A DNA stretch of 64,000 nt from Phlyctochytrium arcticum (lineage: Eukaryota > Chytridiomycota > Chytridiomycetes > Chytridiales > Chytridiaceae): positions 310,001-374,000 of the forward strand of contig JAHLKI010000004.1 in NCBI GenBank assembly GCA_025602905.1. The letters run 5' to 3'. Numbering within the stretch: the first letter of the stretch is position 1; every line of letters begins with the position of its first letter. Made by a program: the position numbers and the translations under genes. The notes below the pieces were generated by a model. It saw only the letters and a list, made by a program, of their open reading frames with translations. It was not told the origin of the DNA and did not search any database. Below, piece after piece: positions 38,963 through 63,849 of this stretch.

Positions 38963-38967
38963 CCGTT
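38963..38967. repeat. Left copy of 5-bp target-site duplication CCGTT
   Basis: CCGTT sits directly before the first base of the left inverted repeat (TGCCACGG). An identical CCGTT follows the last base of the right inverted repeat at 63845-63849. The neighbouring bases differ, so the duplication is exactly 5 bp. Confidence 0.82.
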
Positions 38968-39035
38968 TGCCACGGTGCATACTGCCACTGACCACCCACC
39001 CGGGTGGGTGGTCAGTGGCAGTATGCACCGTGGCA
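38968..39035. repeat. 68-bp perfect terminal palindrome, left
   Basis: A 34-bp arm starting TGCCACGGTGCATACTG is followed directly by its exact complement with no loop, with the centre CCCACCC/GGGTGGG at 39001/39002. The outermost base of the virus is the first base of the palindrome. Confidence 0.95.
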
Positions 39036-39300
39036 CTGGCTGGCATCTATATAGGGATTGAATAGCTGCATGCAGTTTAATGATATAGTTTAATGATATA
39101 GTTTAAAATTGACACGTTTTTGAACCGTGGCAAGCGCAGATCAGGCCTGTATTCGCAGATCTATCGTTAAGATCTTGCCCGTGTCAGAAGCTCCCTATAT
39201 AGATACATAACTATACTGATCTGATCTAAGATCGTGGCAACTATCTATCAATAGGATTCTGACACGATCCGAGCGGCCACATAATCATTCGATGCTAACT

Positions 39301-39642
39301 CTAATCTATCACTATCACTTCTGACTCGATGACGTCATCCGCCGCTGGATCTTCCACTCTCACGTTTCTTGTCCAGATTTCCATTAGTGTCTGGTATGAA
39401 TCGCGAATATCCATCGGTAATGCCTTGATATCGACGCGGCTTTGTTTCCTTATGTTGAACGATAGTTTCTTGGATATTCCGCCGTCCTTCACTGATAATG
39501 AAGTTATATTCTTCTTCTTCATCTCTTGCTTGATATATTCTAACGCCGCTGTATGTTTCTTGACGACTCTATTCGCCGCATCGTATTCTGCTGATATGTC
39601 TAGGTTGATAAACTCCAATACTCGCTCCTCCAATCGACTCAT
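39301..39642 (-). CDS. Repeat-encoded small protein, left copy, unknown
   Basis: 113 residues starting MSRLEERVLEFINLD; the frame extends upstream only to a TTG, and a TATA box fits the ATG at 39642. Mixed helical, highly charged sequence follows: ANRVVKKHTAALEYIKQEMK, then a basic strand KLSFNIRKQSRVDIKALP, and a helix QTLMEIWTRNV. It ends acidic (DDVIESEVIVID). No known domain was recognised; a small DNA-binding or terminal protein is conceivable because it is encoded within the terminal repeat. The copy at the other end is identical, so the virus has two genes firing outward toward the termini. Confidence 0.75.
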   Translation of the reverse strand: MSRLEERVLEFINLDISAEYDAANRVVKKHTAALEYIKQEMKKKNITSLSVKDGGISKKLSFNIRKQSRVDIKALPMDIRDSYQTLMEIWTRNVRVEDPAADDVIESEVIVID

Positions 39643-39687
39643 TGCTAACTTGATTCTAACTTGATGCAATGTAAGGCAGGTTCGTCG

Positions 39688-39696
39688 CTTTATATA
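39688..39696 (-). promoter_or_regulatory. TATA box of the left repeat-encoded gene
   Basis: TATATAAAG on the minus strand, 46-54 bases upstream of the ATG at 39642. The mirror copy is at 63116-63124. Confidence 0.6.
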
Positions 39697-40155
39697 CTCG
39701 TGATTGTATCGATACCTTTTCTTTGTATCGATAGGAAAGAACCAATTGAATCTCTCGCCGCTTATTCGCTCCTAAGGTACCCATCTACATGTCGCTACTT
39801 GTCGCCACTTGTCGCTACTTGTCGATTTACTTTTAGCAAAAAAAGGAAAAAATCCTACAAAAGTAATAAACGTTTAAGTGTGTTTTACTTTTATAGGAAA
39901 ATTTCCTTTTTTCAAATTGCTGAATATGATGAAGTGTGTGGAAAACGTGAAACAATGACCCTCACCGCATCAAAACGCAACGGGAATGAAATATTCACTT
40001 TTCAGGATCTACCCCTATCATCTCGATACGGATACGACTCACCACTATTTGGGGATGATTCTTTCGTGATTCATGTACGATTCATGTACGATTCGGGCAT
40101 TTATAAAATACGCAAATGATACTAGTCTAGAGACATTTATTGTAATATAGTTGTA

Positions 40156-40599
40156 ATGAACTTGTTGGACACTTTGCCTTTGGAACTAATATTAGATATT
40201 TCTAAATATTTGGATACCGATGACTACTTGTCACTTGCAAGCATGTATCGTATTAATCCTGTACGTGAAATTTGCCAGAGATTGAAAAATGAGAAATGGG
40301 CAAAGGTTACATATCCGGTTGAAGGTAATAAAATTGATGGCGATAAAAACAAAAAGTATTGGCATGAAGAAATTATAACTATTCACTTAAGGTATCAAAA
40401 TGCGTATGTGTGTAGTATGTCATACCAATATACATTTGAACCATACTGGGGAAGAAGGGAATATCTGCATTACCATTGGCATTGGAGAGGAAGAAATTTT
40501 CGTTCAGAATTATATGATTATTTTGTATATAGGCGTGAAAGGAAACGCAAACCTTTTATATGGCACCTCATAGATCGATACCCGAAACTCGATACATAA
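40156..40599 (+). CDS. F-box protein
   Basis: 147 residues starting MNLLDTLPLELILDISKYLD followed by TDDYLSLASM, a clear F-box (LPxEL.L.I..YL...D.L.L). The rest has many aromatic and basic residues (for example YWGRREYLHYHWHWRGRN and RRERKRKPFIWHLID) and no WD40 or LRR repeats. F-box proteins bind Skp1 and bring targets to SCF ubiquitin ligases. A viral copy suggests use of host protein degradation, as known for F-box proteins of some other large DNA viruses. It lies just inside the left repeat and points inward, followed by the receiver gene on the same strand. Confidence 0.78.
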   Translation: MNLLDTLPLELILDISKYLDTDDYLSLASMYRINPVREICQRLKNEKWAKVTYPVEGNKIDGDKNKKYWHEEIITIHLRYQNAYVCSMSYQYTFEPYWGRREYLHYHWHWRGRNFRSELYDYFVYRRERKRKPFIWHLIDRYPKLDT

Positions 40600-40637
40600 G
40601 AAATTCTCGCCTCTAATAGTAAAACACATGCCATGTG

Positions 40638-41033
40638 ATGTTAATCGTAGTCGACGACAATAATTTTACTAGGAAACTTATGAAGAAAATGATTAATAGC
40701 ATTACTCAAGAACAAGTCTTGCTATCATCTACCATGATGCTTTTCGACGTATTCAATGATAATTACGATGATATAACTTATGTCTTTACTGATATGTTAC
40801 TCAATGAACGTATTCAGGATCCAACCTTCACGTATAAACAGGAAGGGCTGAACCTGATAGCGTGGATTCGCCAGGCAGAAAAAGATAACATGATCTCTGA
40901 AGGGGTGAAAATTATAGCATTCTCTTCTGATGCAACATTGAAACACAAGGCCCTCGCAGCCGGAGCGGACCTGTTCTATACTAAGCCTGTGACAAAACAG
41001 ATATTGATGGAGATTTTGAAACCTGTAGAGTAG
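40638..41033 (+). CDS. Stand-alone CheY-like response-regulator receiver protein
   Basis: 131 residues from the ATG at 40638 (a GTG lies just upstream). All receiver landmarks are in order: acidic pair D6-D7 (IVVDDN), phospho-acceptor D52 (VFTDMLL), Ser96 in place of Thr/Ser (IIAFSSD), and invariant K116-P117 (FYTKPV). The GADLFYTKP block and length fit a complete single receiver domain with no output domain. Such proteins accept phosphate from histidine kinases or phosphotransfer proteins. Fungi use these in stress and osmotic signalling (Sln1-Ypd1 type). I know of no receiver protein as a standard PLV gene. It follows the F-box gene by 38 bases on the same strand. Confidence 0.85.
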   Translation: MLIVVDDNNFTRKLMKKMINSITQEQVLLSSTMMLFDVFNDNYDDITYVFTDMLLNERIQDPTFTYKQEGLNLIAWIRQAEKDNMISEGVKIIAFSSDATLKHKALAAGADLFYTKPVTKQILMEILKPVE

Positions 41034-41086: not shown

Positions 41087-41428
41087 ATGTGCTATTTATG
41101 TCCTGAATCAAGGGCTATAGAGATTACATCGAAGAGCGGCGAAACTGCATATATGTTAAGACTGCCTATATCGACCGAAGCACAATTGACAGATATAGCT
41201 ATTTCTTTAAGAGGAAAAGATTTGTATGTGTACGTACCGAGGACCCCATGTAATCGACCATTGTTCGAGAAGATTATCACCATTTCAAGTATGCTTCATC
41301 CCAGGGTCAATAAGAAACTAAGACGGGAATTCTTGCAGTCAGGGTGGTTGAATGTCAGTGAAAGTAAAGTTGCACTTGGATGCAACAAGAAAACATTTAT
41401 TGAATACTTTGAAGTAATCTATTCCTAG
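41087..41428 (+). CDS. Unknown viral protein
   Basis: 113 residues starting MCYLCPESRAIEITSKSG. Beta-rich first half (AYMLRLPISTEAQLTDIAIS, then LYVYVPRTPC), helical second half with basic residues (LHPRVNKKLRREFLQSGWLN) and end FIEYFEVIYS. No family recognised. Its stop overlaps the end of the convergent fibre gene by four bases, and it is the last of three rightward genes after the left repeat. Confidence 0.6.
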   Translation: MCYLCPESRAIEITSKSGETAYMLRLPISTEAQLTDIAISLRGKDLYVYVPRTPCNRPLFEKIITISSMLHPRVNKKLRREFLQSGWLNVSESKVALGCNKKTFIEYFEVIYS

Positions 41429-44400
41429 TATTCCAACATCTGCAAATCAATGCGAGAATTCCCATCAAATCCTAAATTACTACCTGTCCATGTCAATGTG
41501 AATGTGTGTGCTCCAATAGAAAGCCCTGTAGTAATGAATGACAGTGGGAATCGCAAAATCTGACCTGCATATCGCCAAAACAAATACATAGTTTTGACAA
41601 CATTACCATCAACTCTAAGAGAGACATCTATACCGTAATTATCCGAGTTTGCATACAAGGCGATACTCCCCATATACGTTTGCGTCGTTCGTGTCGTTGT
41701 AAAAGTCTTTGAGAAACCGCTGGGAATACCGGTTTGTCCTGAGCCAGCATTATCCCAAATGTTCGCAGCAGAAGGTCGTGTTAACAAACCCTGGCCATCT
41801 AGATATAATCCCGAATCTGCTTTGATGTACATCATATTTTGGTATGGAGCCGCCGTTGACGTATTACCCACACCTATGTAACCGGAGACAGTAGCATTGT
41901 TGTTCTCGAATTGAATAGTGGAGTAACCACTAGCATGTCGATTTTTGACTTTGAGAGTATTACCCACGAGATTTGCTTGTATGACATTTTGGGTTACTGA
42001 ATTAAATCCAAAGTCGACCTGAGATTGGCTATGGATCAACCCAGCACCACCCATTGGTCCCAATGATAAAGTCAATGAGTTTGAATACCAGCCAATGAAG
42101 CGGTGGTTCGTAGGGGTATCAAAGAAATGCAGATCCCCTCTTTCATGTACAGGTGTGCAATTTATATACATGTTGCCCAAGTTGATTTGACTGAAACCCG
42201 TATTCGGAATCTTCAGATACGTCCCATTGATCGTAATGTCTCCAGTCGTTGTCAAACTTGGTAGCGTTGGTGTTGCACCAGACAAACTTGTAAGATTCGC
42301 ATGAAGCGGTTGTTTGCTACCAAGAGATGTTGTCAGTGAAGTCCCACCAATGAATACGTCTGTACCGACATATAATTTCTTGGCTATTCCAGCCCCACCA
42401 GCTACAGTAAAACAGCCAGATGTTGTACTTGTAGAGTCTGTTGCAGTATTGATAGCAATCTGACCGTCGGATCGTAACTGGAGAATATGGCTCGATAAAG
42501 CAAAATTGTAGAATCCCAATGATCCATTTGATAAACCTCCTGTACCATTTTGACCTGCATGATACAAACCCCATTGCGTACTTGATGATGCATTATTCAT
42601 AAGGAGAATACTGTTACCTGAAACAGCAGACAACGGCGCGTTAATAACCAACGCATTAGGCTGGTTGTCTGCTCCCAAATTCAAAGTCAAAAGTTTTGAA
42701 GTAAATGAAGTATCATATCCAGTCAATTTTGATTCAATTGGTGCAAGACGAGTATTGTAGTCTGAAGTCAGAACATAGGATGGAACATTAGTTAATCGGG
42801 AAAAGTCCAGTTGTCCAATCGATTCTGAAGTTGACAAATCAATAGAATTCTTCAGGGACAACGAACCGAATACTGGCTTACTAGTGACATTCGTCCAATC
42901 AATCGTACCACTTGTCGCAGATGAAGACAAGCCTAAAATAGTCTTTATAGATGCAGCGTTATCAATTGTGATGAGAGGTTGCAATGTCGAAGTATTCACC
43001 TTATTGATGGGGATAATACCGGTTACCTCGGTTGTCGAAAGGTCGATAGAATTCTTCAGGGACAACGAACCGAATACTGGCTTACCTGTGACATTCCCCC
43101 AATCAATATTACCGCTAGATGCAGTACTGGATAATCCCAAAGTTGTCTTGATTGATGCTGCATTTCCCGAGGTGATCAAAGGTTGAAGTGTCGAAGTATT
43201 CACCTTATTCACTGGAAGCACACCTGTTACAAATGAAGTACTTAGATAAATTGTGTCAAGATTTGATAATGCTTTCAACAAACTCTGCCGTGTCTCTATC
43301 GGTGTGAAGCGGTTATCGATTACAGTCTGTCTTGTATTGTAGGTTGATAATAACGTATAATTTGACAAGGGAATTGCCGCGATTTGAGTCGTCACGTATT
43401 CTTGGCTTGCAACTAACTTGTTTCCTGCGAGAAATACACCAGTTGATTGGATACGCAGTTGTTCAGATAATGTTCCTACGAGACCAGTTGATGATGAGAT
43501 ACTAATAGCGCTTCCATAGTTGTTGTCATCAATTATTGAAATCTGTGAAGAGAGTTTATTAGCAGAGGGTAGAAATCGAATATTCTGTGTGGAATCACTG
43601 TTCTTCACAACAGTAACATTATCGAGCAACTTACTGGAACTAAAACCTCCTGAAGTACCGCGGAATATCACTGGTACATTACTTGTCAAAGTCCCGGCGT
43701 CTGTATTCTGTAAACTAGTGACGAATACATTATTCACAAATACCTCAAGTTTGTCATAAGTGAATACCAACTTCACCGTTATCCAAGTATTTCTAACAAG
43801 TGACAATGGAGGAATGGTTGTTTGATTTACATTAGAAGGACTCCATATTCTTGTATAATTATAAAAGGAACTAAACCCAACTCTCCATCCTCCACATACA
43901 ATTTCGAGACCTTCGTCGTTTCCGCTTCCATAATAAAGATCTGCTTGTAATGTCCAATATCTACCTAAAGATGTGATAGTATAGGTTAACGTACCATTTG
44001 AATGTGTCTGACCGGCCACTTGAAGATTCACCCACTTGTTGGTTGCATCATACGCTGCAGTTCCCGCTAATGTACCAGTAGGAGCACTTGTGAAATTATC
44101 AGTTAGAAGTGAAGTTAAAGTCGAGTCCACACCAGACAATGACAGAATACTAGTGATTGTATTCTGCTTCATCGAAATAGATGTATCAATTGCCGTCTGC
44201 CGAATATCATAGACACTTTGAGCTACCTTGGTTCCAATCGATGCGTTAATCGTATTCAGATCAGTCGTTCGATTTAGATAAATTGACAAGTCTGGATTTC
44301 CACTAACAAGACTATACGGAATCTTGTTTGTACCACTTATTTTCGTCTGGTAATTATTGTTTAGATCTCCTTCAATTGACCCTAGCAATGCCTGTTGTGT

Positions 44401-46650
44401 ATCTATAAGATCAGTTATTGGATTCACTAGTTGAGAGACGAGACTCATAGTATTCGGTTTAATCACTTCTGAATCGTATTCTCGTAGAATTTCGAGATTC
44501 ACGGCCTGCTGTTTATATTCAGATGTGATACCTAGCCAAGAACATGGAGGCGGTTTATCAAAAAGAAGCCTCGTTGCATCACATCCGGTATTGTCTGGCA
44601 TCGTTACGATAACCACATTAGCACCGGGTTCTAAGTCAATATTTCCATCACTGTCAAGAATTGGATCACCATTAGTGTCTTCTTTACGCTCACGCTTCCT
44701 GCCAAAAATGGAGATGAAACCTCCAGTTGCAGCCGCTCCGCCAAGTAAGCCCCCAGAACCCGCAATAGCGCCTATAGCAGAACTTGCTGTTCCGATTGCA
44801 CCAGCACCTCCCAATATTCCGCCAAGTCCAGCCAATCCACCGGCCAATCCACCTGTAACTTGAATAATATCACCTCCTCCGTTCTTCAATACTCTCTGAT
44901 CACTGTTTTCCGTCGTCTCTTCATTAGGAGCATCTTCTGCTTTTTTTTGGGTGAGTGTATCAATACTTGAAATCGTGTAGGGTCCACCAGGACCACCCGT
45001 CACTATGATTCCTGTGCCTGGCAGAATACTGAGGGTATTTGAAATCGTTTTGCCAACAACTGATATACCGTTACTACCGACATATGGCTGTTCGGCTTCG
45101 GGTTGATATGTACATGATATAGTTGAACCTGATATAGAGATGTTATTTCCCGCTGTATAAGCACCTTTAAATTCATTACCGATTCGTGTGATTCCATTGG
45201 AAGCAGTGAGATTCTCTGTGATATTCGTTTTAGTAGAATTCATTTCTAATGCGCCAGAAACACTCAAATCCAAGGAGACTTCATGACTTGAATTTTCATG
45301 AAGGCCATTTGAAAATGTTCTAGTATCAGTCAACACTGAACCATCGTAATCCAAATTGCCACTAGTTTGAATATCAAGATACACATCATTGCCATTAATA
45401 CCAAGTCCATTGGCTTGTTGAAACAACAGACCAGAAGCAATCTTACCTTGAGAGTTGATTCGGATTGTTGAGTTGTCAACCAAGGGACTTGGATTCACAC
45501 CAAGATTAAAGTTTGTATCAACCGCTAAACTCGCGTCGGTATTCAATTCAACGACTTGGTCTCGAATCACAACTGCTCCACTTCCCTGGTAAACACTCTT
45601 CACGTATTCCGCAGTGACAGCTTCGTTGTTTGAAGGATTCGAGTTTGCGCTAAGTGAAACATGACCGACAGACAACTCATTCAAAGTACTGTTGAATACG
45701 AATTCGGATGATTGGTTCATACCAACCAGTCCGCTACCATAATACACCTGACCCAAACCGTCACTTTTGATCCCCAGTCGATTTGATTGTTGAGTGAGGT
45801 TGTTTGTATCGACGCTAAGCTTTACAATACTAGCATCGAACGATTCAAGTGGGTCCTTATACACCGATATTGCATCAATGCCGTTTAGGTATTCGGATGC
45901 ATCTTTGGCATTCAGTTTACCATCTTTCACTTCTAATCGACTTCCAATCTTTAAGGACACTTCATTGTCAATCTCATCGAGGGGTTCAATAAAGGACATG
46001 CGCTCTGGAATACGGGCCTTCAACTCACCTCCATCAATATCCATAGTCTCGCTGTCTATCTTGAGGGACAATTTGTGACTATTTAGAACATTGTAATAGA
46101 ACGGATCAGAGATTTTGAGACTCAACCCTTTTGCAAATAGATTCAAATCACCGTCAAGTATAGATTCTGCGTCTTCCATATGAGATGCATACCTTAACTC
46201 TATTTGGTCATCGTCATTGTAAAAGAGCGGACTGTTCAATTCAGGCTTTTGCTTCCTGGCAACCAATTTATTATCTTGATCAACGAACAATGAGTCTTCG
46301 TCAATCAAAAGACTTATGGACCGTCCATTGTTTGAGTCATTTTCTTCACATGAAAGCGGAACCTCATAAGAGGGATCAATTGTGGTTAGAAGATTATCTT
46401 CTGTTATATTCAGTCGATGAGGATCTATATTCAAGGAAGTGGTTGCCTCCCCGTTGGAAAGACTGGTTGAAAGTGGTGAATTTGAGGTTATCTCGTTTAC
46501 CTTCATTTCGCCATTAGTATTCGATATTTTTGGAACACTGATACTCGAGTATTCGTCACCTTTTAGCTCTCCGGAGATGAAGCTATCGGAGATAATCGTG
46601 CTATTAAGATTTCTCAATCCATTTGCGGATCTTGAATTTAACCCACTCAT
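41425..46650 (-). CDS. Giant fibre/adhesin-like virion protein
   Basis: 1,741 residues from the ATG at 46650 (MSGLNSRSANGLRNLNS); upstream there is only a TTG. The N-terminal third is made of repeated beta-rich segments with SLKI, NxLT and GxG patterns, typical of trimeric fibres. A Gly/Ala-rich hydrophobic stretch lies at about 585-655 (GGLAGGLAGLGGILGGAGA). A jelly-roll, concanavalin/laminin-G-like domain at about 850-1005 includes WTLQADLYYGSGNDEGLEI and WITVKLVFTYDKLEVFVNN. Then come two near-identical units with LKNSIDLSTTEVTGIIPINK and TLQPLIT. The C-terminus has a beta-sandwich tip. Long proteins of this kind form host-binding fibres in PLVs and relatives; binding to a fungal surface glycan is an inference from the lectin-like domain. 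Confidence 0.8.
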   Translation of the reverse strand: MSGLNSRSANGLRNLNSTIISDSFISGELKGDEYSSISVPKISNTNGEMKVNEITSNSPLSTSLSNGEATTSLNIDPHRLNITEDNLLTTIDPSYEVPLSCEENDSNNGRSISLLIDEDSLFVDQDNKLVARKQKPELNSPLFYNDDDQIELRYASHMEDAESILDGDLNLFAKGLSLKISDPFYYNVLNSHKLSLKIDSETMDIDGGELKARIPERMSFIEPLDEIDNEVSLKIGSRLEVKDGKLNAKDASEYLNGIDAISVYKDPLESFDASIVKLSVDTNNLTQQSNRLGIKSDGLGQVYYGSGLVGMNQSSEFVFNSTLNELSVGHVSLSANSNPSNNEAVTAEYVKSVYQGSGAVVIRDQVVELNTDASLAVDTNFNLGVNPSPLVDNSTIRINSQGKIASGLLFQQANGLGINGNDVYLDIQTSGNLDYDGSVLTDTRTFSNGLHENSSHEVSLDLSVSGALEMNSTKTNITENLTASNGITRIGNEFKGAYTAGNNISISGSTISCTYQPEAEQPYVGSNGISVVGKTISNTLSILPGTGIIVTGGPGGPYTISSIDTLTQKKAEDAPNEETTENSDQRVLKNGGGDIIQVTGGLAGGLAGLGGILGGAGAIGTASSAIGAIAGSGGLLGGAAATGGFISIFGRKRERKEDTNGDPILDSDGNIDLEPGANVVIVTMPDNTGCDATRLLFDKPPPCSWLGITSEYKQQAVNLEILREYDSEVIKPNTMSLVSQLVNPITDLIDTQQALLGSIEGDLNNNYQTKISGTNKIPYSLVSGNPDLSIYLNRTTDLNTINASIGTKVAQSVYDIRQTAIDTSISMKQNTITSILSLSGVDSTLTSLLTDNFTSAPTGTLAGTAAYDATNKWVNLQVAGQTHSNGTLTYTITSLGRYWTLQADLYYGSGNDEGLEIVCGGWRVGFSSFYNYTRIWSPSNVNQTTIPPLSLVRNTWITVKLVFTYDKLEVFVNNVFVTSLQNTDAGTLTSNVPVIFRGTSGGFSSSKLLDNVTVVKNSDSTQNIRFLPSANKLSSQISIIDDNNYGSAISISSSTGLVGTLSEQLRIQSTGVFLAGNKLVASQEYVTTQIAAIPLSNYTLLSTYNTRQTVIDNRFTPIETRQSLLKALSNLDTIYLSTSFVTGVLPVNKVNTSTLQPLITSGNAASIKTTLGLSSTASSGNIDWGNVTGKPVFGSLSLKNSIDLSTTEVTGIIPINKVNTSTLQPLITIDNAASIKTILGLSSSATSGTIDWTNVTSKPVFGSLSLKNSIDLSTSESIGQLDFSRLTNVPSYVLTSDYNTRLAPIESKLTGYDTSFTSKLLTLNLGADNQPNALVINAPLSAVSGNSILLMNNASSSTQWGLYHAGQNGTGGLSNGSLGFYNFALSSHILQLRSDGQIAINTATDSTSTTSGCFTVAGGAGIAKKLYVGTDVFIGGTSLTTSLGSKQPLHANLTSLSGATPTLPSLTTTGDITINGTYLKIPNTGFSQINLGNMYINCTPVHERGDLHFFDTPTNHRFIGWYSNSLTLSLGPMGGAGLIHSQSQVDFGFNSVTQNVIQANLVGNTLKVKNRHASGYSTIQFENNNATVSGYIGVGNTSTAAPYQNMMYIKADSGLYLDGQGLLTRPSAANIWDNAGSGQTGIPSGFSKTFTTTRTTQTYMGSIALYANSDNYGIDVSLRVDGNVVKTMYLFWRYAGQILRFPLSFITTGLSIGAHTFTLTWTGSNLGFDGNSRIDLQMLEY

Positions 46651-51667: not shown

Positions 51668-51674
51668 CAGCGTT

Positions 51675-53165: not shown

Positions 53166-53922
53166 CTGTTGCCATTTGATGATCACTCTGATTACGAGCT
53201 AATTACAATCGGAGATCTTTTCGTTACAGGTCGTTCTTGTGGTAGTGAACATCCCGACCCCACCAAACGTCAATGGTCACACGACTGCCAAAGTAAGAAC
53301 ATGCATACCGGAAGTCGCATATAAAGTACTTATCATACCTTTGTGGCAGCGAATCTATTTGCAGTAAAAGGGATAGTTGAGTATTGAAGACCCTGATCAT
53401 ACGGAAAGATCTAACGAGACACAAGCATAACAACATCATAGCAAGATAAAGATAGAAAAAACTAAGTCAATTTTACTGAAACTAAATAAGATGTCAAGTT
53501 GGCCATGGCTATGGGATTGGCGATCTCTTTTTTCGCAATCTCAATGATGTCCAATGAAAGTTCGACTCCGGCTTGTGATAGTGCAAGGCTGGTATCGACC
53601 CAATTTTCTTCTATTCCCAGAGTAGAGTAGAATGGGTGAAAAGGCAAAGTAAAAGGCAATGGAAAAGATTGGGAGTGCAGCGGGGGCGGTGTGGGTGGGG
53701 GGGTTGATCTATGCGGTTGCGTCTGGGCCGTCGTTTCTCTTGGTTCTTCCTTATGTATGCTGTTTAAGTACTCTCTCTTGATAGCCGTCGTCAGTAGCTG
53801 GAAATAGTGAAATGGGAGTAATGGAAGTAGTGAAATGAAGAAGGAAAATGCCTTCAAGCAGAAATAGCCGGGCATCATGCATCAACTTTCTCCGATACTC
53901 ATAGCGAGAGGTATCTGGGTGT

Positions 53923-55819
53923 TCATTTTCGAAATTTGTGGCGGACGGTTTCTTCTTCACCAACGTCTTTTGCCCCGTTCTCTTCTTTGGCCACCTCTTT
54001 CATGAGTTCTTCCTGATCTAGGAGGACATTAAACACCGTGGCGACGAGCTCAAAGACCTTGATCCAGCCGTATCTTTGTGACCATTCCATGGGAATAATG
54101 GCCGACCGGAGCTCCAGATATTTCCATTTTTGGGTCAGAGGGCACAATGATAACTGCGTGAGAGTGATTTTTCCGCCAATGTATTGGACGCCGAGTATCT
54201 TTCTTTGCGTCATTGTAGCAAAAGAGGCGTCTTTGTGAGATAGAAATTCGGTTTTCAAGGAATGGACGCAAGATTCCAAGAGTTTCAAGGTATCTTCAAG
54301 CGTGTGGGCCATGTGTTCCCTGGCGGTACCAGCTACTCCGCTGGACGCCTCCATGATGACAATCTCCGAATCGGTAGTGGGATCCAGTCCCAAACCGTCG
54401 GCGAGTTTGCATGCCCTCGCGGTAAAGTCATTGTCTTCCATCGTAGTCGTGAATCTTCCCATCATCGTGTACTCGCACCAAGTGAATCGAATCAAACCAG
54501 TATTGAAGGCAAGACTGTCAAAAATTGGGACAATACGTTGTACCCATGTTGTCCGCTCATGCTTGGGGCGGTCGGAGGAAGTGGCTTTTTGAGTGAAATC
54601 TGTCAGCGTGTACCTCATCGCCAACCACAATCGTTCCGCTCGGTTGTCGCCACTTGGGAGGTCGGTGGTCCACAAGCGCAACGGCCAGCCCTTTATGTCC
54701 ATTGACAGGATAGTTTGCAACGCAGTCTCTACCCCGTCAAAGACTTTCAAAGATTTGCGGGCGCGCTGGTCTAGCGCTTCTTGCGTCATTTCGGCCTCTC
54801 CCTCAGCAGTTACATCTTGGCGACACCACGATACGGCCAAAATCATTACATCCTTCAAGGCTTGAACATCTGATTTTTTCATCTTCGGTTTAACGGGCGT
54901 GATGCTATCGCACACTCCTTTCGGGTATAGATAGTGCTTGTTGTTCTTCTCCAGTTCTACGTAGTTCGCGCTACTAGAGGAAGACGATTCAGACGATTTA
55001 CTTGGTGTCCTTGGGGTTTCCATCGGCATTGCGGGCATCGCGCGAGCGGGACGCGTTGGCGAGACAGATACGTCGTCTTCTAGCTCATCTTCCAGAATTG
55101 AGGGTGTTGGGATTAGCGGCAAGTCTGCGGCTGGCGCATCCAAGATCGGGCTGCGATTGGAAATATGAGCAAGCATCACACCATGAATCCGACTTGTTTC
55201 AACTGACCGAGCTTGTGCTGCATTTCCGCCTTTGATTTTTTTGCGGAGACCCTCCGTCAGTGCAGTATCAATCAGACCAGATTGCCGCTTGCGGTTCAGA
55301 TGCTGTTGGAGATCGAATCGGTTGAAGGAACGAAAAAATACAGCCTCCCGAATTATACCTTGTCATCAATCAACTTCAACCTTTCCCAATGGCGACCCCA
55401 ACAAGAATCCGCGTCTTCAAACTGGAAACAGAAGCACCAAGTGTGTTGGAAGAAAAATGCCTTGATCTCGCATCAAGCATCCTCACCTTATATGCAGCGA
55501 TGCTTCTCGCGCACACAGCAACGGAAGTCCGATGTGCCGAAGGCATTCGACCCAGCCTACGAATAACCCATTTGACGGCATTTTGAATCCTCGTTTTCGC
55601 GGTATCATAGTCGCTGAAGTTCCACTGACAGTATTTTGCAAAGCGTACCGGATCCAAGACACCCTTCCTCATTTGCTGTTCACAGTACATAAGCTCGCGT
55701 AGGGAAACACCCGAGACTACATTTTCAGCATTTTCCTTTTCTGATGGAAGGTCTGCAAGTCCCCACTCGTCGTTCTTGTCCATTACTTTACGAGGTTGAT
55801 TGGTTGACGATTGGGACAT
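53923..55819 (-). CDS. Unknown protein, lineage-expanded type, one intron
   Basis: Exon 1 starts at the ATG at 55819 (MSQSSTNQPRKVMDKNDEWG) and reads to about 55379. A probable intron ends near CCAACAG at about 55304, after which the frame continues HLNRKRQSGLIDTALTEGLR and runs to 53923. The donor site is not clear. The body has a Ser-rich linker and then a conserved-looking C-terminal domain with WPLRLWTTDLPSG, EIVIMEASSG, HTLEDTLKLLESCVHSLK and LGVQYIGGKITLTQLSL. The acidic residue followed by alternating strands recalls PD-(D/E)XK-like repeat proteins of Mucoromycota. That resemblance is from memory of layout and is weak. It is divergent from the zinc-knuckle gene. Confidence 0.55.
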
Positions 55820-55893
55820 GTCTTTCAGAGAACACGCTCAGGCCGCGCAGACAGAAACTCGATCGGTTGAACAATTTCATTTGCCAAATCCGA

Positions 55894-55985
55894 CCGAGGA
55901 GGTTCGAATCACAGCTGAGTCGAGCCTACAAATCAGCGGCTTGTCACGAGATTATTCGCTGGATCCAGCCGAGGAGGTTCGAATC
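55894..55985. repeat. Pair of 17-bp direct repeats in the divergent promoter
   Basis: CCGAGGAGGTTCGAATC occurs at 55894 and 55969 between the two divergent genes starting at 55819 and downstream of 56133. It could be a regulator-binding site. Confidence 0.6.
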
Positions 55986-56132
55986 GCGGAGATTTAATTA
56001 GGAACAATTGCTTGGCCGGCTAAAACCCGAGTTTAGCCGAGCGGCGCCGTCGACTAACTCCGACTTGATCTATGATACTTTGAACCTCCTCCCCTCCTCC
56101 CCTCCCGGACCCTCCCGGACCCTCCCCCCTTC

Positions 56133-56140
56133 TATAAAAG
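56133..56140 (+). promoter_or_regulatory. TATA box
   Basis: TATAAAAG lies within a C-rich stretch (CCTCCCGGAC repeats just upstream). About 75 bases downstream is CCGAGGTAAGATT, a probable donor of a 5' UTR intron. The ORF starting at 56706 is the likely product. Confidence 0.5.
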
Positions 56141-56705
56141 GACTCGCTCGCGGTACTCCCCCGTCACTCATTTACTTGAACCTCCTACGTTACAAACTTC
56201 CAACGACCACTTCCGAGGTAAGATTCTGCAGCTTTGGACATGCCGCGAGATCCCTTTCTAACTTTGGTAAACCTTCCTCCATAGATTTTTCCCCGCAACC
56301 GCCGCATCTGGCCCTTCTACTCAGCTTCCTCAACTCCACTGCTCCTCCAAAACCTTATCTCAAGTCCTCAACACCACCCTACCCTCGTCCCTGTCTCTAT
56401 CACCCATCTCTCCCTCCTCCTCCTTCCTCAAGACACCCGTACATTATCCCTCGCCGCCCGCCTCCATCTCCTGCTACAGATTCTTCAACACACACCCTCA
56501 TCCACCCCATCGACCCCGCAAACCCAACCTACAGTGGAGTCAGTGTCGAGTCATTGTCAGAGTCATCCGGCCCGTAACTTACGCGTAGCGTGGGAATCAG
56601 CATCGGATCATTTCAGAGGGGAGGTGGCGATTCTCGACTACAAAAGGATTCTCCTTCCCTACTTCCCTGCATACGGCGTCTTACCTCTTATTACTTTATC
56701 CCACA

Positions 56706-57074
56706 ATGGCCAAAAAGCGCAAGCGGTCAGAGAAAGAGAACGAAGACGAGCCTGATCCCAACAAGTTTTGCAAAGTCTGTCAATCGAAAGGCCGAACCTT
56801 CGCGGACAACGATCCACCTTTCCATCAACGATCTTCCTCGTCGCTTTGTCCCGATCGCCAAAAGTCACACAAGTCTACTCTGAAGGATAAACTCAAGGGG
56901 GAAAAGAAGACTGCGGATGGGAATACTGAGAATACTGATGACAACACAACTCGGGCGTGTGAAGTTACGGTCAAGGATGGGATCTCTGGTTTGCTACGAG
57001 CAACTCCCTATCGCCGGCAGCTTCAAACAACGATGGAGATGAACGTCTCTCGTATGACATTGTTGACTTACTGA
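56706..57074 (+). CDS. Basic protein with CX2C..HX6C zinc-knuckle-like motif, probably truncated
   Basis: 122 residues starting MAKKRKRSEKENEDEPDPNK, then FCKVCQSKGRTF and HQRSSSSLCP. This Cys-Cys-His-Cys pattern is common in proteins of fungal transposons. The rest is Lys/Thr-rich and then VKDGISGLLRATPYRRQLQT. The stop codon is formed by the first bases of the half palindrome at 57073, so the original protein was probably longer and cut at this junction. Function unknown. Confidence 0.5.
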   Translation: MAKKRKRSEKENEDEPDPNKFCKVCQSKGRTFADNDPPFHQRSSSSLCPDRQKSHKSTLKDKLKGEKKTADGNTENTDDNTTRACEVTVKDGISGLLRATPYRRQLQTTMEMNVSRMTLLTY

Positions 57075-57108
57075 CACGGTGCATATTGACACTGACTACC
57101 CACCCGGC
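57073..57108. repeat. Half copy of the viral terminal palindrome
   Basis: TGACACGGTGCATATTGACA and the following bases match 30 of the 34 bases of the viral palindrome arm, through CCCACCC. The complementary half is missing: after CCCGG the sequence turns into viral coding DNA. It marks the boundary of the right viral arm. Confidence 0.8.
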
Positions 57109-58130
57109 GACTGTTGATTAATACTAGTAGCATCCAATGGATTATATTCAACACTACGTTCAACACGACGAGATATATCCTTACCTGTTAACCTGTCTTC
57201 GACACCTGAACGAACTACTGATGGAATCATCGGAACCAATCTTCTCGGTTTCCTCGGCGGAATTGGATTAACTCGATTAGGAGTACGATTCGGTCTTACA
57301 ACAAATGGGGAACGATAATTAGGAACAGCATCTTGCCTGTCGGGCTCAACCTCAATAGGATCTACAAGTACGATTGGGGGAACTGGTGCAGGGATTGGTT
57401 CTGGTTCTGGTGGTTCTATTGGAGATACAATTTGTATTGGCTCAGGCGATGGTATTCGCGGAAATGCTCCTGGCAAACTAATATCTCTTTCTCGTTCTCT
57501 ATCAATACGAATCGGGTTGGGGTTTAACGTTCCCATTCCTTCTGATGCGAATGTTCGTCCCGTTTCATTGTCTCGTCGTATAACTGTTTGCAATGTTTCA
57601 ACCATGGGAGGCGGTACTGAATCAATGCCCTGAGGCGGGCGTTGAAATTCTCTAACATTACGGGGCGGTTCAAATCGAATACCGGACATAGCAGCAACAT
57701 CATCGCTATAATGTGGAACAACACCATTTACAGAAGGGATCGGCATGTAGGACCGATTAGTACCTGAAAGTGATTTCTCTGGAATAAGTGAATCAAGAAA
57801 GTCCTTCTGTTTCTTGTATGACAACTCAATGTTTTTGTATTCATCGTAATCTTTGTAAGCCTTAGTAGCATAGACTGTGTTGGCCACATTCGTAACAGAC
57901 AGTGACGGTTTTGCAACATTATTGTTCATCAGTCGTTCTACTGTATTATATTTTCCACTATCCAGTCTTTGCGTTAAGTGATTCCACGTGCTAATAATTT
58001 TACCAGGTCGTCCGAATGAATCATACTTATCTCCATCAACAATATTCGTAATGAGATTGTTTTGAGCATTGACTTGTCCCGGTGGATCATTCACACCGGC
58101 AAACTCTAACGTATTCGTTCTATATACCAT
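57096..58130 (-). CDS. Proline-rich viral protein, probable virion component, C-terminus altered
   Basis: 344 residues starting MVYRTNTLEFAGVNDPPGQV. A long mixed region (YDSFGRPGKIISTWNHLTQR; helical ELSYKKQKDFLDSLI) precedes a proline-rich part (IPSPEPIQIVSPIEPPEPEP) and a basic end (PNRTPNRVNPIPPRKPRR). The last codons read into the half palindrome, where the stop codon arises, so the original end is probably lost. It is divergent from the small basic gene at 58215. The setting beside packaging and capsid genes suggests a structural role, but no family was recognised. Confidence 0.6.
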   Translation of the reverse strand: MVYRTNTLEFAGVNDPPGQVNAQNNLITNIVDGDKYDSFGRPGKIISTWNHLTQRLDSGKYNTVERLMNNNVAKPSLSVTNVANTVYATKAYKDYDEYKNIELSYKKQKDFLDSLIPEKSLSGTNRSYMPIPSVNGVVPHYSDDVAAMSGIRFEPPRNVREFQRPPQGIDSVPPPMVETLQTVIRRDNETGRTFASEGMGTLNPNPIRIDRERERDISLPGAFPRIPSPEPIQIVSPIEPPEPEPIPAPVPPIVLVDPIEVEPDRQDAVPNYRSPFVVRPNRTPNRVNPIPPRKPRRLVPMIPSVVRSGVEDRLTGKDISRRVERSVEYNPLDATSINQQSPGG

Positions 58131-58214: not shown

Positions 58215-58526
58215 ATGAGCTTCGGTAAGTTCTTGACCAAAGGACGACAGAATCTGAAATCATTTTTTCATAATGCTCCCTCTCATTTAAGCAAAGCGCG
58301 TGGTTTTGCGGCAAGTGCTGTAGGATTTGCCAATCGAGGTTCTAAATTGATAGCAGGTGTAAATAAATCGATTCAAGAAAGCCCAGATTTATTTAATGAA
58401 AAGGTTAGAAGCAAGGCAGATGATATAACTAGCAAAACTGGAAAAGGCGTCAAGAAACTAAGTGATCTTCATGCTTCGAGTGACAAATTTGTGGATCGAC
58501 TGAGTACTAATTTAAGCGGTGACTAA
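58215..58526 (+). CDS. Small basic viral protein, probable virion-associated
   Basis: 103 residues from the ATG at 58215 (MSFGKFLTKGRQNLKSFFHN); upstream the frame continues only to a TTG. It is basic and amphipathic, with a central hydrophobic helix (GFAASAVGFANRGSKLIAGV) and KR-rich surroundings. It ends four bases into the convergent packaging ATPase gene. Small proteins starting MSFGxF beside the ATPase and capsid genes look like minor virion or membrane-interacting factors in such viruses; that is inference from context. Confidence 0.6.
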   Translation: MSFGKFLTKGRQNLKSFFHNAPSHLSKARGFAASAVGFANRGSKLIAGVNKSIQESPDLFNEKVRSKADDITSKTGKGVKKLSDLHASSDKFVDRLSTNLSGD

Positions 58527-59233
58527 AAGTAGTCTTTGAATACGTTATTCTCGCAATACTTGTATATATCTTTAGCTGTATTCTTTGATAGATCGACAAG
58601 ACAAAATGAATACGGTATCCTAGTACAATCAATCAAATATTGAAGCACTTCCTTTTTAGTCACATGAGAAGTGACTAAGGTCTCTGATAACGTCTCAAAA
58701 TCTTTGTTATTATTCTTAAAGATGATCCATTCTGTAGTGCAACCCTTCTGTTTTTGACTTAGTTGGGATTTAATCGACTGGCAACATACTATAATACTGA
58801 TATTGTAATGCCGACCCTTTGTATATAAAAGATCAAGTTTTTTTGCTAAATCTTTCGATCTCGCACCATCAGCAGCATCGTCTATGAAGAGTAGTATTCG
58901 ATCCTTACAATCATTCTCCTCTTGATATTTCACGATAGCGGAAATACTATCATTTGAGACTTCGTCATTGAAATAAATATTTTTATGTTTCGTTGTCTGG
59001 GCAAATTGTTGAATACACGTGTCATAACGAACAGTATCTGACATTATGATAGTCTTGTCGAATCTATTAGCATACACATCTTCAATCAAACCCATGGCCA
59101 AGCCAGTCTTACCAGATTTACGTGGCGCACATAAAGTGCACGCTAGGGGATGTGAGGGGATCGGCTCAGGGACGCGAGGATCCCTTTCAATAGCTTTCGG
59201 ATTGTATATGGGCTTTACCTTGTACGTCGTCAT
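58523..59233 (-). CDS. Packaging ATPase, A32/FtsK-HerA type
   Basis: 236 residues starting MTTYKVKPIYNPKAIERDPR. Walker A is APRKSGKTGLAMGL, preceded by the strand LACTLC, as in PLV and virophage ATPases. Walker B is ILLFIDDAAD. A downstream SIIVCCQSIKSQL block is typical for the sensor strand, and LVTSHVTKKEVLQYLIDC is the usual C-terminal helix. It pumps viral DNA into the capsid. It is one of the PLV core genes and sits next to the capsid genes. Confidence 0.9.
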   Translation of the reverse strand: MTTYKVKPIYNPKAIERDPRVPEPIPSHPLACTLCAPRKSGKTGLAMGLIEDVYANRFDKTIIMSDTVRYDTCIQQFAQTTKHKNIYFNDEVSNDSISAIVKYQEENDCKDRILLFIDDAADGARSKDLAKKLDLLYTKGRHYNISIIVCCQSIKSQLSQKQKGCTTEWIIFKNNNKDFETLSETLVTSHVTKKEVLQYLIDCTRIPYSFCLVDLSKNTAKDIYKYCENNVFKDYF

Positions 59234-59266: not shown

Positions 59267-59986
59267 ATGACCATCAATGAGTGGACCTATTGTTCTCTAA
59301 AGCGTCGATCGTTCAATATAGAGAAGCGGAACGTTTCATTTGTCAAAATATTGTCAGTGAGTTTTATTCAAGACTATGATTTGATCAACAGTACCAACAA
59401 CGTATTCGCTTTTAAAGAGGACGGGAATACCGACACTATTAAAGCCAGTATTCCTCATGGCAACTACACTGTAGCAAACTACCCGCAAGCCGCTGCAGCC
59501 GCAATGACTACAGCAGGGAGTCAAGCATATTCGTCAAGTTACAACCAAATTACTCGAAAAATTACTATAACAGCTGTAGACAAAGACTTTCAAATATTGC
59601 CAGGTATGGAAGGGACTAATGCGTATTCAGTTTCTGGGTATTCGAATCGAACTGCATCGCCTATGGCAAAGACCGTCACATTTAAAAACAGTGTGAATCT
59701 ATCTGGTTCATACCCGATTCTTTTGACATCGAATATCAATGTTCCAAGTGTTCGATATCTATCTGATTACAATGATACAGCGAGTACCGTTATTGCTACA
59801 ATCATCCCCGATTCGTTTGGGGATGTTGTCACATTTATAAATGATTCAGAATGGTTGCCTTGTAATGATACAATTAGCAAGGTTGAGTTTCATCAAATTG
59901 ATTCACAAACAGGTGAAGAACTTGCATTGAATTCACCATTAACAGTGAGATTCTTGATAGCCGACGACATTTCAGATGTTCAATAA
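59267..59986 (+). CDS. Probable minor capsid (penton) protein
   Basis: 239 residues starting MTINEWTYCSLKRRSFNIEK. It has the arrangement common in penton proteins of PLVs and polintons: N-terminal strand, a segment for emptying onto a grid (IPHGNYTVANYPQAAAAAMT), then beta strands (ITRKITITAVDKDFQILPG), and a single jelly-roll ending in PLTVRFLIADDISDVQ. The IPHGNY block is characteristic of capsid pentons of this group. It lies between the ATPase and the major capsid gene, which is the usual place. Confidence 0.72.
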   Translation: MTINEWTYCSLKRRSFNIEKRNVSFVKILSVSFIQDYDLINSTNNVFAFKEDGNTDTIKASIPHGNYTVANYPQAAAAAMTTAGSQAYSSSYNQITRKITITAVDKDFQILPGMEGTNAYSVSGYSNRTASPMAKTVTFKNSVNLSGSYPILLTSNINVPSVRYLSDYNDTASTVIATIIPDSFGDVVTFINDSEWLPCNDTISKVEFHQIDSQTGEELALNSPLTVRFLIADDISDVQ

Positions 59987-60528: not shown

Positions 60529-62017
60529 ATGACCGATATTCAAGTACCTAAGAACTGGCTTGTGGGATCGTCGAGGTTCGCTCAGCCGTATTCCAACCCC
60601 CGCCTTGAATCAATTAATAAATGGTATCCCATCGGGCAAGATTCATTTACGTCCAAGAATCGGCAAGCAGCACCAATTAAAATCTCGTTGCACGATGCAT
60701 CTCGATCCCTTCAATTGCAGAATCTTCTGTTGAATTTCAAAGTTCAAGTATTCAAAAATGGGCAACCAGTTTCAGGGAATACGGTCATCAACAGCAGTAT
60801 CGGTTTAGAAGGTTTGATTCAATCGGTACGAGTATGTATCGGATCGAAGGATTTGCAGAAAATCGACAATTATCCTAAATACCTCAAGACTGTCTACAAG
60901 TATCTACCAAAGACGCAAAAGACATTCTTGAAGTCATTATCTGGATATGGAGTTAAAAATATTTTTGAAACGAGCAGCGTGGCAGGTTGTTCAACACATA
61001 TGCCAATCGGTGTACACTTTAAAATAGGCCACTTAATCTTTATTCTGGGGCGAGCCATTGCTCCTTTATATACATGAGTGAAAATAATTGACAGCTATAA
61101 ATGTGACAGTCCATGGATGTGGAGGGTGAGAAGATTACGGCTGTCAATCTACTACTCCAAACTGTTCAATGTGGGATAAAGGAAAGCAGGTAAGTAGAAC
61201 ATGGAACAATCATCATGGAGCTCGTGCATCAGTATCGCATACCTCTTACATACACCACCCGGATAATGACTCTTTGTTTCATGTGTGGGCCCTCCCCAAT
61301 CAAACGCTAGATTACTACATAACACTGCGCGATCCTGCTCTAGTATTCTTAAACAATACTGTTGATGAAGTGAAATTTAGTGAAACTTCCATCATGGTAC
61401 CGACTTTCCAGCCGCCCCCCGAGTTCCAACTCGCTGTGCAAAGATCCGTCGCTGCAGGTAAAGAATTGTTCTATGATTACACACGTTATTCTACTCAAGA
61501 GTTGGCTTGTAACGGTTCCACTCGTCAAACTTACCGTATTCACATGAACGGTGTTCGGAGTTTGAAGGCCTTTGACTTTTCCTTTGTCGATGAAGACCTT
61601 CTTGCTAATCCTGCACTTGACAAGAATGAAATTTCGTCTAGTAAAGGTCTTCGTGAGTGGTTCATCCAAATCGGTAACCTTGTCACGCCTAATGGTACTA
61701 CTGGATTTTTGAACGGTCCTACCAATCCAGAAACACTGCTCATTTCGCAGATTAAAGGCAACTACTTGTCTGCTGTAGGTGAGATGGATTTACCCTCACT
61801 GTCTGACTACCAGAACAAGGACTTTAGCGCCGGGTTTTCATACCAGAGCATTGATGAATCTTCTAGTGCGGCCCTTTCGTTTGTTGGCACTGATAGTATT
61901 ATGGAAATCACAACTATCCATGAAGCAGGACAACAGCCTTCCACCAACTGTCGCATGGAATTCCAATATTCTGAGAACGTCACACTCTCAATTAGCACAC
62001 TAGTCGATGTGATCTAG
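60529..62017 (+). pseudogene. Major capsid protein, double jelly-roll type, interrupted
   Basis: The N-terminal part (60529-61077) starts MTDIQVPKNWLVGSSRFAQP, with the PLV MCP features NPRLESINKWYPIGQDSFTS and FKVQVFKNGQPVSGNTVINS. The C-terminal part, in another frame from about 61130, has the second jelly-roll: SYIHHPDNDSLFHVWALPNQ, LVFLNNTVDEVKFSE and, near the end, STNCRMEFQYSENVTLSIST, stop at 62017. About 120-180 bases between them are not in frame and contain the inverted pair ATTGACAGC/GCTGTCAAT (61086 and 61140). They are an intron or a damaging insertion. The protein would form the icosahedral shell. Confidence 0.82.
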
Positions 62018-62071
62018 ACAACAATTGAATATTTAAAAAAAAACATAAAGATAAGAATATAATCATAAAAA

Positions 62072-62545: not shown

Positions 62546-62608
62546 CACTTAAAAGTCAGTTTCTTTATCGGAGACAAACTTGCAGTACCCAAACAGATAT
62601 TCTTGAAT

Positions 62609-62710
62609 ATGCTTATATTACCGCCATCAGAATATATAAAACTACTTCTTCACGAAGAGAAAGATGAAATCATTATCAAATTGGCAGGTAGAGAGTTGCG
62701 TATTTTTTAA
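62609..62710 (+). CDS. Possible 33-residue viral peptide
   Basis: Begins MLILPPSEYIKLLLHEEKDE and ends in a beta-like LAGRELRIF, with a stop in an A/T-rich tract. It follows the previous gene in the same orientation. Short, so weakly supported. Confidence 0.3.
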   Translation: MLILPPSEYIKLLLHEEKDEIIIKLAGRELRIF

Positions 62711-63115
62711 ATGCCCGAATCAATAAAGAATCAATAAAGAATAGCTAAAGAATAGCTAAAGAATCACGAAAGAGTCGTATCCGTATCAATTTGATAGGGA
62801 TGGATCCTGAAAAGTGAATATTTCATTCCCGTTGCGTTTTGATGCGGTGAGGGTCATTGTTTCACGTTTTCCACACACTTCATCATATTCAGCAATTTGA
62901 AAAAAGGAAATTTTCCTATAAAAGTAAAACACACTTAAACGTTTATTACTTTTGTAGGATTTTTTCCTTTTTTTGCTAAAAGTAAATCGACAAGTAGCGA
63001 CAAGTGGCGACAAGTAGCGACATGTAGATGGGTACCTTAGGAGCGAATAAGCGGCGAGAGATTCAATTGGTTCTTTCCTATCGATACAAAGAAAAGGTAT
63101 CGATACAATCACGAG

Positions 63116-63124
63116 TATATAAAG
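63116..63124 (+). promoter_or_regulatory. TATA box of the right repeat-encoded gene
   Basis: TATATAAAG lies 46-54 bases before the ATG at 63170; mirror of 39688-39696. Confidence 0.6.
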
Positions 63125-63169
63125 CGACGAACCTGCCTTACATTGCATCAAGTTAGAATCAAGTTAGCA

Positions 63170-63511
63170 ATGAGTCGATTGGAGGAGCGAGTATTGGAGT
63201 TTATCAACCTAGACATATCAGCAGAATACGATGCGGCGAATAGAGTCGTCAAGAAACATACAGCGGCGTTAGAATATATCAAGCAAGAGATGAAGAAGAA
63301 GAATATAACTTCATTATCAGTGAAGGACGGCGGAATATCCAAGAAACTATCGTTCAACATAAGGAAACAAAGCCGCGTCGATATCAAGGCATTACCGATG
63401 GATATTCGCGATTCATACCAGACACTAATGGAAATCTGGACAAGAAACGTGAGAGTGGAAGATCCAGCGGCGGATGACGTCATCGAGTCAGAAGTGATAG
63501 TGATAGATTAG
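63170..63511 (+). CDS. Repeat-encoded small protein, right copy, unknown
   Basis: Identical 113-residue product to the gene at 39301-39642 (MSRLEERVLEFINLD start). It reads outward toward the right end of the virus. Equal gene dose at both ends and the same distance to the tip (333 bases from stop to terminus) show that repeat and gene are maintained together. Confidence 0.75.
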   Translation: MSRLEERVLEFINLDISAEYDAANRVVKKHTAALEYIKQEMKKKNITSLSVKDGGISKKLSFNIRKQSRVDIKALPMDIRDSYQTLMEIWTRNVRVEDPAADDVIESEVIVID

Positions 63512-63776
63512 AGTTAGCATCGAATGATTATGTGGCCGCTCGGATCGTGTCAGAATCCTATTGATAGATAGTTGCCACGATCTTAGATCAGATCAGTATA
63601 GTTATGTATCTATATAGGGAGCTTCTGACACGGGCAAGATCTTAACGATAGATCTGCGAATACAGGCCTGATCTGCGCTTGCCACGGTTCAAAAACGTGT
63701 CAATTTTAAACTATATCATTAAACTATATCATTAAACTGCATGCAGCTATTCAATCCCTATATAGATGCCAGCCAG

Positions 63777-63844
63777 TGCCACGGTGCATACTGCCACTGA
63801 CCACCCACCCGGGTGGGTGGTCAGTGGCAGTATGCACCGTGGCA
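63777..63844. repeat. 68-bp perfect terminal palindrome, right
   Basis: Same 34-bp arms as on the left (TGCCACGGTGCATACTG start), with centre CCCACCC/GGGTGGG at 63810/63811. The last base of the palindrome is the last base of the virus before CCGTT. Confidence 0.95.
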
Positions 63845-63849
63845 CCGTT
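63845..63849. repeat. Right copy of 5-bp target-site duplication CCGTT
   Basis: Directly follows the terminal CCGTGGCA of the virus and matches 38963-38967. Confidence 0.82.

Follow-up and report, generated by a model that had tools for sequence, protein, structure and literature searches.

Palindromic termini suggest hairpin telomeres in a family of polinton-like viruses integrated in the chytrid Phlyctochytrium arcticum

Introduction

How does a polinton-like virus (PLV) without a protein-primed DNA polymerase replicate the ends of its linear genome? To our knowledge, there is no established way. The question is raised by a locus of the chytrid fungus Phlyctochytrium arcticum (Chytridiomycota), found in a stretch of 64,000 nucleotides of contig JAHLKI010000004.1 (positions 310,001 to 374,000; hereafter the window), in which positions 38968-63844 are a polinton-like provirus of 24.9 kb. 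A first-pass annotation of the window had recognized an integrated PLV in a fungal genome, with the right coordinates and CCGTT on both sides. This identification holds, based on the hallmark genes, the inverted repeats, the CCGTT duplication and relatives with the same type of end at other loci. In kind, the provirus is nothing unusual, although the fungal case is a rich one. The most informative feature, a palindrome at each terminus, was absent from that annotation. Based on these palindromes, we consider it probable that the family to which the element belongs consists of linear viral genomes with hairpin telomeres, which replicate by fold-back priming and are integrated by a chromodomain integrase, similar to that of prototype foamy virus (PFV), acting at the stem base.

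The analysis covers the organism's own genome (31.48 Mb in 91 contigs); the window lies on contig C4, and C1, C2, C15 and so on denote its contigs. A related element on contig C15 of the same genome, the C15 relative, served as reference for intact gene forms.

Terminal palindromes across the family

Each end of the window element is a perfect palindrome of 68 nt, whose DNA fold has an energy of -44.9 kcal/mol, compared to a mean of -14.8 for shuffled sequences (z -12.2). Only the terminal 69 nt give a long direct match between the two ends, because this part is itself palindromic. Twenty end loci were retrieved at the outset, and 18 of them show this architecture: arms of 29-36 nt flank 0-5 unpaired nucleotides at the centre, and one locus holds two palindromes. 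The arms are wholly paired in 17 of the 18, and the extended arm of L045 has a single mismatch.

The pattern GTGCATA-N(20-50)-TATGCAC occurs at 85 sites in the genome, compared to one site for the reversed control. Pairing statistics cover 72 of these 85 sites (22 of 22 in one listing, 50 of 63 in the other), and 63 of them have 80% or more of the unconstrained interior in pairs. This threshold favours pairing, and the fair form of the statement is that 63 of 72 sites pass when the search had fixed the outer 7 nt only. In the 63 palindromes 1042 of 1077 possible interior pairs are formed and, the three apical pairs aside, the stem is perfect in 58; 27 stems are distinct. The remaining nine sites lack a palindromic interior and were excluded. 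A separate dispersed repeat family has the outer motif without an inner palindrome (C2:707991, C2:1495513, C3:71734, C9:383642, C19:533654 and C25:130109).

The palindromes diverge between subfamilies, and their self-complementarity is kept. Comparison of nearest-neighbour stems of equal length with at most eight differences (n = 13) gave 32 compensated and 3 uncompensated changes. In the C18 element the left and the right palindrome differ, and each one is perfect.

Asymmetric apices allow the orientation of a palindrome to be scored relative to the interior of its element. Among elements with exact target duplications, the two ends have a common orientation in C23, C7:648k, C25:139k and C6:775k (here the apices differ by 1 nt in length) and opposite ones in C41, C18 (where the stems also differ), C26 and C1:1308k. 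Opposite orientations are also seen in C3:1361k, which has the flanks of C1:1308k and was not counted separately; C2:456k, whose ends are unlike, was not scored. If the two ends flip independently of each other, an even split is to be expected. The observed split agrees with copying through a hairpin, and a fixed binding site would hardly account for it. Palindromes with flip and flop apices, as known from poxvirus-like hairpin telomeres, are thus present in this family.

Of the 63 palindromes, 35 have a gene for a small protein, the terminal-repeat protein, at a distance of at most 1.5 kb; in 34 of these 35 cases the gene reads toward the palindrome. The chance level is about 0.7% per site. 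The protein has no significant match in Pfam, and the homologs found in the databases are 13 proteins, all from P. arcticum. It is tempting to guess that it binds or protects the hairpins. The motif TGNCACG was considered as a family-wide iteron and rejected: among 12 ends examined, only three (the window element, C2:456k and one C45 end) have 4-5 copies of it within their first 300 nt, C15 has two copies and the other eight have none.

Integration sites and size of the family

Exact 5-bp duplications directly outside TG...CA were found in 16 of 19 candidate pairs of neighbouring palindromes, while a single 5-bp match has a chance of about 1/1024. The duplications are CCGTT, GACAT (twice), GTTAC, GTCAG, GTAAC, CCCTG, TGCCG (twice), CATAG, AACGT, AACCT, AGCTC, GTGCC, ACAGA and GAGAG. 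The two TGCCG cases, C1:1308k and C3:1361k, have common flanks and are probably one event that was duplicated. At C4:900k four of the five bases match, and C5:1128k, with unlike ends, may be no true pair. The outer flanks of C6:103483-127749 (C6:103k) are inverted copies of each other without a target duplication, possibly the result of a later inverted duplication.

The C15 relative carries an integrase (423 aa) that matches rve (4e-14) and Chromo (3e-13) and, among solved structures, the PFV integrase (1.7e-8). Ends of the form TG...CA with flanking duplications of 5 bp agree with integration by such an enzyme.

How much the two ends of an element have in common inside the palindromes was determined by local alignment of 168-250 nt against the shuffle level. 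There is no inner homology in C2:456k, C2:1321k, C6:775k, C1:1308k and C3:1361k, all with exact duplications, and only 26 nt are common in C7:648k. At the other extreme, C40:7173-32114 has mirror-symmetric matches up to 5855 nt from each end, and its repeats span the capsid and ATPase genes. Since end homology ranges from none to 5855 nt, the palindrome and not a long repeat is the constant end. A short member, C25:139557-141303 (L096), has 1747 bp, ends that share only an exact repeat of 73 nt, an open reading frame (ORF) of 157 aa and an ORF of the terminal-repeat family; we read it as a non-autonomous derivative or satellite. C2:456723-480891, with unrelated ends, a single pair of 5-bp duplications and two matches to the integrase, seems to be a chimaera that integrated as one unit.

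Searches of the genome gave 52 matches for the ATPase, 48 for part of the capsid protein, 33 for the receiver-domain gene, 74 for the terminal-repeat protein and 103 for the integrase. These counts include fragments and one element can yield several matches; the weak integrase matches at the end of the list are confined to the chromodomain part and probably stem from other elements. P. arcticum harbours a large family of integrated PLVs, of which the window element is a broken representative.

A model of hairpin telomeres and its alternatives

In the model, the free genome would be a linear double-stranded DNA whose hairpin ends are either closed, as in poxviruses, or folded back, as in parvoviruses. 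At the base of the stem, a nick behind CA would expose a 3' end as primer for synthesis through the hairpin, and the apex would be inverted in each round. The same CA 3' end could, in the hands of the integrase, attack host DNA with a stagger of 5 bp, and filling of the gaps would leave a complete palindrome at each end. Mismatch repair of the stem would keep the arms matched. Replication would be driven by the viral primase-helicase, and the junctions would be resolved by host or viral nucleases. The nick might be made by the integrase itself, an idea towards which we do not lean. Equally tentative is the idea that the stem base serves both as the replication nick and as the inserted end, so that any two hairpins, even across subfamilies, define a mobile unit.

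The boundaries of the palindromes are the exact integration points, and a hairpin-resolving enzyme was not recognized in our searches. Both would suit the assumption that the palindromes are binding or cutting sites of the integrase and nothing else, with a free genome that replicates by protein-primed ends or as circles and never forms hairpins. However, a site of this kind has no need of fully paired arms with an apex between them, of compensated changes or of two apex orientations, and no match to a protein-primed family B DNA polymerase (PolB) was found among the Pfam-scanned ORFs of the window and the C15 relative, which include part of the small ORFs. We regard this explanation as unlikely. 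The elements might also be plain transposons by now, moving within cells only and carrying their capsid genes as relics, as the 5-bp duplications, the many copies and the 1.75-kb derivative with like ends could indicate. But capsid frames of about 417-441 codons are free of stops at many loci, even among matches of 26-28% identity, and ATPase frames are conserved across family loci, which suggests selection on virion genes. This makes the transposon explanation rather unlikely; it does not conflict with hairpin ends.

Hairpins could also be made by a telomere resolvase, as in phage N15, Borrelia and, as proposed, phaeoviruses, by cutting the replicated palindrome and resealing its halves. With 58-73 nt and a short symmetric core, the palindromes resemble telRL-type sites (PMC13236599), but they are located at element ends beside 5-bp duplications and not at an internal linearization site. 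Moreover, the catalytic domain of the ResT/TelK family (PF16684) had no match in the genome, compared to one positive among 14 control genomes, and we judge a resolvase of this type very unlikely. Fold-back chimaeras of the library or the assembly can produce long palindromes too, and our analysis was made from the assembly alone; but 63 palindromes with 27 distinct stems and a common outer motif, together with exact duplications outside 16 of 19 pairs, leave hardly any room for an artefact. Nor is an assembly join, which the first-pass annotation had named as a possible source of the element, needed to account for it, as relatives at other loci share the type of end and the 5-bp duplications.

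Hairpin telomeres remain our preferred explanation, and several findings weigh against them. All evidence comes from integrated copies. The negative result for ResT/TelK counts here as well, and a Holliday junction resolvase of the A22 type was not seen among the Pfam-scanned ORFs, a scan that covered part of the ORFs and that remote homologs may escape. Two of the 20 fetched end loci (L052 and L054) gave no palindrome, three of the 19 pairs are without an exact duplication, and part of the compensated changes could result from cruciform repair in the host genome. The terminal-repeat gene is absent within 1.5 kb of 28 of the 63 palindromes, two of the 35 with such a gene (C1:1323982 and C25:139564) borrow that of a neighbouring palindrome, and of the 74 terminal-repeat genes 34 are close to a listed palindrome, the other 40 being without one. 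Relatives in IMG/VR were found neither with a single capsid sequence nor with profiles of 10 capsid or 8 ATPase proteins. A search of IMG/VR for the terminal motif returned three contigs, none of them palindromic inside.

Relation to known viruses and elements

Parvoviruses have single-stranded genomes with terminal palindromes in flip and flop orientation and use an HUH nickase. The family described here resembles them in its terminal palindromes; an HUH protein was not recognized in the Pfam scans. Flip-flop hairpins are also described for asfar-, pox- and phycodnaviruses (PMC11788076) and for Paramecium bursaria chlorella virus 1 (PMC6260650). The likeness to the telomeres of these viruses extends to putative hairpin ends with two apex orientations, inverted repeats of variable length and, in a relative, a D5-like primase-helicase. 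In contrast, the elements of P. arcticum are much smaller, are known from integrated copies with target duplications, and have no recognized A22-type resolvase. Phaeoviruses are integrated viruses of eukaryotes too, with a palindrome that is thought to become hairpin telomeres (PMC13236599), but their recombinase is of the tyrosine type, their site is internal and they possess a gene for a resolvase, whereas the present family has an rve integrase and sites at the termini, and a resolvase match was not found in the genome.

Polintons/Mavericks have in common with the family the rve integrase (here in relatives), inverted repeats and genes for capsid and ATPase. They differ by duplications of 6 bp (5 bp in all 16 exact cases here) and by a protein-primed PolB (no match among the ORFs scanned here); terminal palindromes are a feature of the present family. 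The rve integrase, one of the features of Polintons in the strict sense, is found in the C15 relative and at many other loci, while the window copy has no match.

That a PLV resides in a fungus, a kind of host that the first-pass annotation had called less familiar, has a precedent in Spizellomyces punctatus (Bellas and Sommaruga 2021, PMC7805220). The "Spizellomyces punctatus group" of that study is similar to the present family in its double jelly-roll capsid relatives and its integration in a chytrid, and some of the elements reported there have terminal inverted repeats and duplications of 5-7 bp. Differences are the single fungal provirus there compared to dozens in the one genome of P. 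arcticum, and a chitinase gene, present in 52% of the group and not seen in the ORFs scanned here. "Hairpin" and "palindrom" occur nowhere in the available text of that paper, nor in that of Yutin et al. 2015 (PMC4642659) or of the Cafeteria virophage papers (PMC10945749, PMC8547959). Fungi were excluded from the genome collection of Bellas et al. 2023 (PMC10120064). For cryptophyte PLVs, duplications and terminal repeats are on record (Bulzu et al. 2025, PMC12220804), the word "hairpin" being absent from the available text. "Terminal hairpin" is used of giant viruses (PMC12747079). No description of hairpin, palindromic or covalently closed ends of PLVs was found in the searched literature, whose coverage is partial, and this absence is weak evidence. 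As far as checked, the terminal hairpin system is new for PLV biology. In Cafeteria virophages the type of primase is linked to the terminal sequence (PMC10945749). Such a link is unsupported in the one pair compared here: the window element and the C15 relative share the type of end, and the window primase did not find the PF09250-type primase of the C15 relative.

The palindromes suggest a route of end replication for PLVs that lack a protein-primed polymerase. If true, the telomere strategy of pox- or parvoviruses would be joined to integration of the retroviral type, and small PLVs would be tied to large DNA viruses by a common telomere strategy. The palindromes also provide an exact terminal signature by which such elements and their gene-poor derivatives can be found, and with its dozens of diverse copies this chytrid offers a fungal system for the study of endogenous DNA viruses.

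Genes and state of the window element

The features of the window element are compiled in Table 1. With 24.9 kb, inverted repeats of 1073 nt and the CCGTT duplication, it agrees with what is expected of a PLV (about 14-40 kb, inverted repeats, target duplications). The first-pass annotation was right that the repeats are identical; they are inverted, and their length, given there as about 1,042 bp, has to be corrected. Their complete identity is a sign of recent integration or of homogenization. The GC content is about 0.37-0.42 inside the element and about 0.49 in the flanks, the exception being the block at about 50-57 kb.

Table 1 Features of the integrated element and its target site in the window
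Feature	Position	Strand	Remarks
Left target site duplication	38963-38967	.	CCGTT
Left terminal inverted repeat	38968-40040	+	1073 nt, 100% complementary to right arm
Left terminal palindrome	38968-39035	.	34-nt arms, loop 0, begins TG, finishes CA
Terminal-repeat protein	39301-39642	-	113 aa; reads toward the putative hairpin
F-box-like protein	40156-40599	+	weak, under Pfam cut-off
Response-regulator receiver domain	40638-41033	+	stand-alone
113-aa protein	41087-41428	+	counterpart in C15 relative
1741-aa repetitive protein	41425-46650	-	putative fibre
Helicase C-terminal part	47355-47951	-	separate ORF; DUF5906 match under cut-off
Primase-helicase N-terminal part	47948-49750	-	open frames of 818 and 863 aa in two close relatives
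RNase H ORF	50420-51037	+	under Pfam cut-off; dispersed relatives
Internal palindrome	51613-51667	.	slightly imperfect; like C40-type ends
Host-like high-GC block	51668-57071	.	5.4 kb; ankyrin ORF; adjoins site of integrase in C15
Half terminal palindrome	57072-57107	.	C8 type; broken 2 nt beyond centre, fused to viral DNA
Truncated relative of 520-aa C15 protein	57096-58130	-	
103-aa protein	58215-58526	+	counterpart in C15
A32/FtsK-type packaging ATPase	58523-59233	-	PF04665 (Pox_A32), 1.8e-7, over cut-off
239-aa protein	59267-59986	+	minor capsid candidate, judged from position only
Double jelly-roll major capsid gene (predicted fold)	60529-62017	+	interrupted
Right terminal inverted repeat	62772-63844	-	1073 nt, 100% complementary to left arm
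Terminal-repeat protein, second copy	63170-63511	+	113 aa
Right terminal palindrome	63777-63844	.	sequence same as left palindrome
Right target site duplication	63845-63849	.	CCGTT

Among the hallmark genes of the first-pass annotation, the capsid gene stands, as does the ATPase, with a Pfam match to Pox_A32 over the cut-off. The primase-helicase is split and its matches are weak (PF19263, 1.8e-4, under cut-off; phrog_1156 DNA primase, 1.5e-4); in a sequence search against solved structures, its primase part matched nothing at 0.01. In the C15 relative the primase matches PF09250 and D5_N, both over the cut-off, and on this basis, together with the weaker matches in the window, a primase-helicase takes the place of a protein-primed PolB, as expected of a PLV. 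"Fibre" is a guess, the 1741-aa ORF having no Pfam match at 0.05. The candidate minor capsid protein has no match in Pfam either, and its C15 relative has none in Pfam, PHROG and NCBIfam. The RNase H ORF is, as we read it, of copia-type origin.

A capsid profile of 10 proteins retrieved nine homologs, located in chytrid genomes, on two other contigs and in the record Powellomyces chytrid fungus MELD virus 5; they include the S. punctatus proteins P0003 and P0007. This speaks against host homologs of all core genes, an outcome by which, according to the first-pass annotation, its claim would have fallen. A first structural model of the capsid protein was poor (predicted local distance difference test score, pLDDT, 48) and was discarded. 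The predicted model of an S. punctatus relative matches double jelly-roll capsid proteins, and the capsid gene of the window family is accordingly predicted to encode this fold.

The window copy is a broken, damaged mosaic. The genome-wide integrase search gave no match inside it, the primase-helicase is split, and a host-like block lies inside. The capsid gene, a single ORF of 414 aa in the C15 relative, is interrupted by 233 bp (61018-61250) with a TACAC repeat on the flanks. An intron was considered as the cause and rejected in favour of an insertion, as no GT-AG solution, by eye, recovers the reading of the relatives. Present activity, which the first-pass annotation had suggested for relatives, could apply to these at most and not to the window copy. 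The half palindrome may record a breakage at the hairpin tip or a deletion at the palindrome. Either two proviruses, together with the host-like 5.4 kb, were mobilized as a single unit, or the interior was rearranged later. The outer duplications match; by eye, the 5-nt flanks of the internal palindrome differ from each other, and the 5 nt preceding the half palindrome differ from CCGTT.

The gene for a stand-alone receiver domain recurs in the genome, its 33 matches having 27-100% identity. In the window copy the acidic, phospho-acceptor, Ser/Thr and Lys residues that we take to be the expected motif look present by eye. No paper joining "polinton-like virus" with "response regulator" was found among those searched, and the recurrence of the gene hints at interference with phosphorelay signalling of the host. 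In the C15 element, an ORF of 388 aa (L060:1205-2371) has a sub-threshold match (0.03) to a phage N6-adenine methyltransferase.

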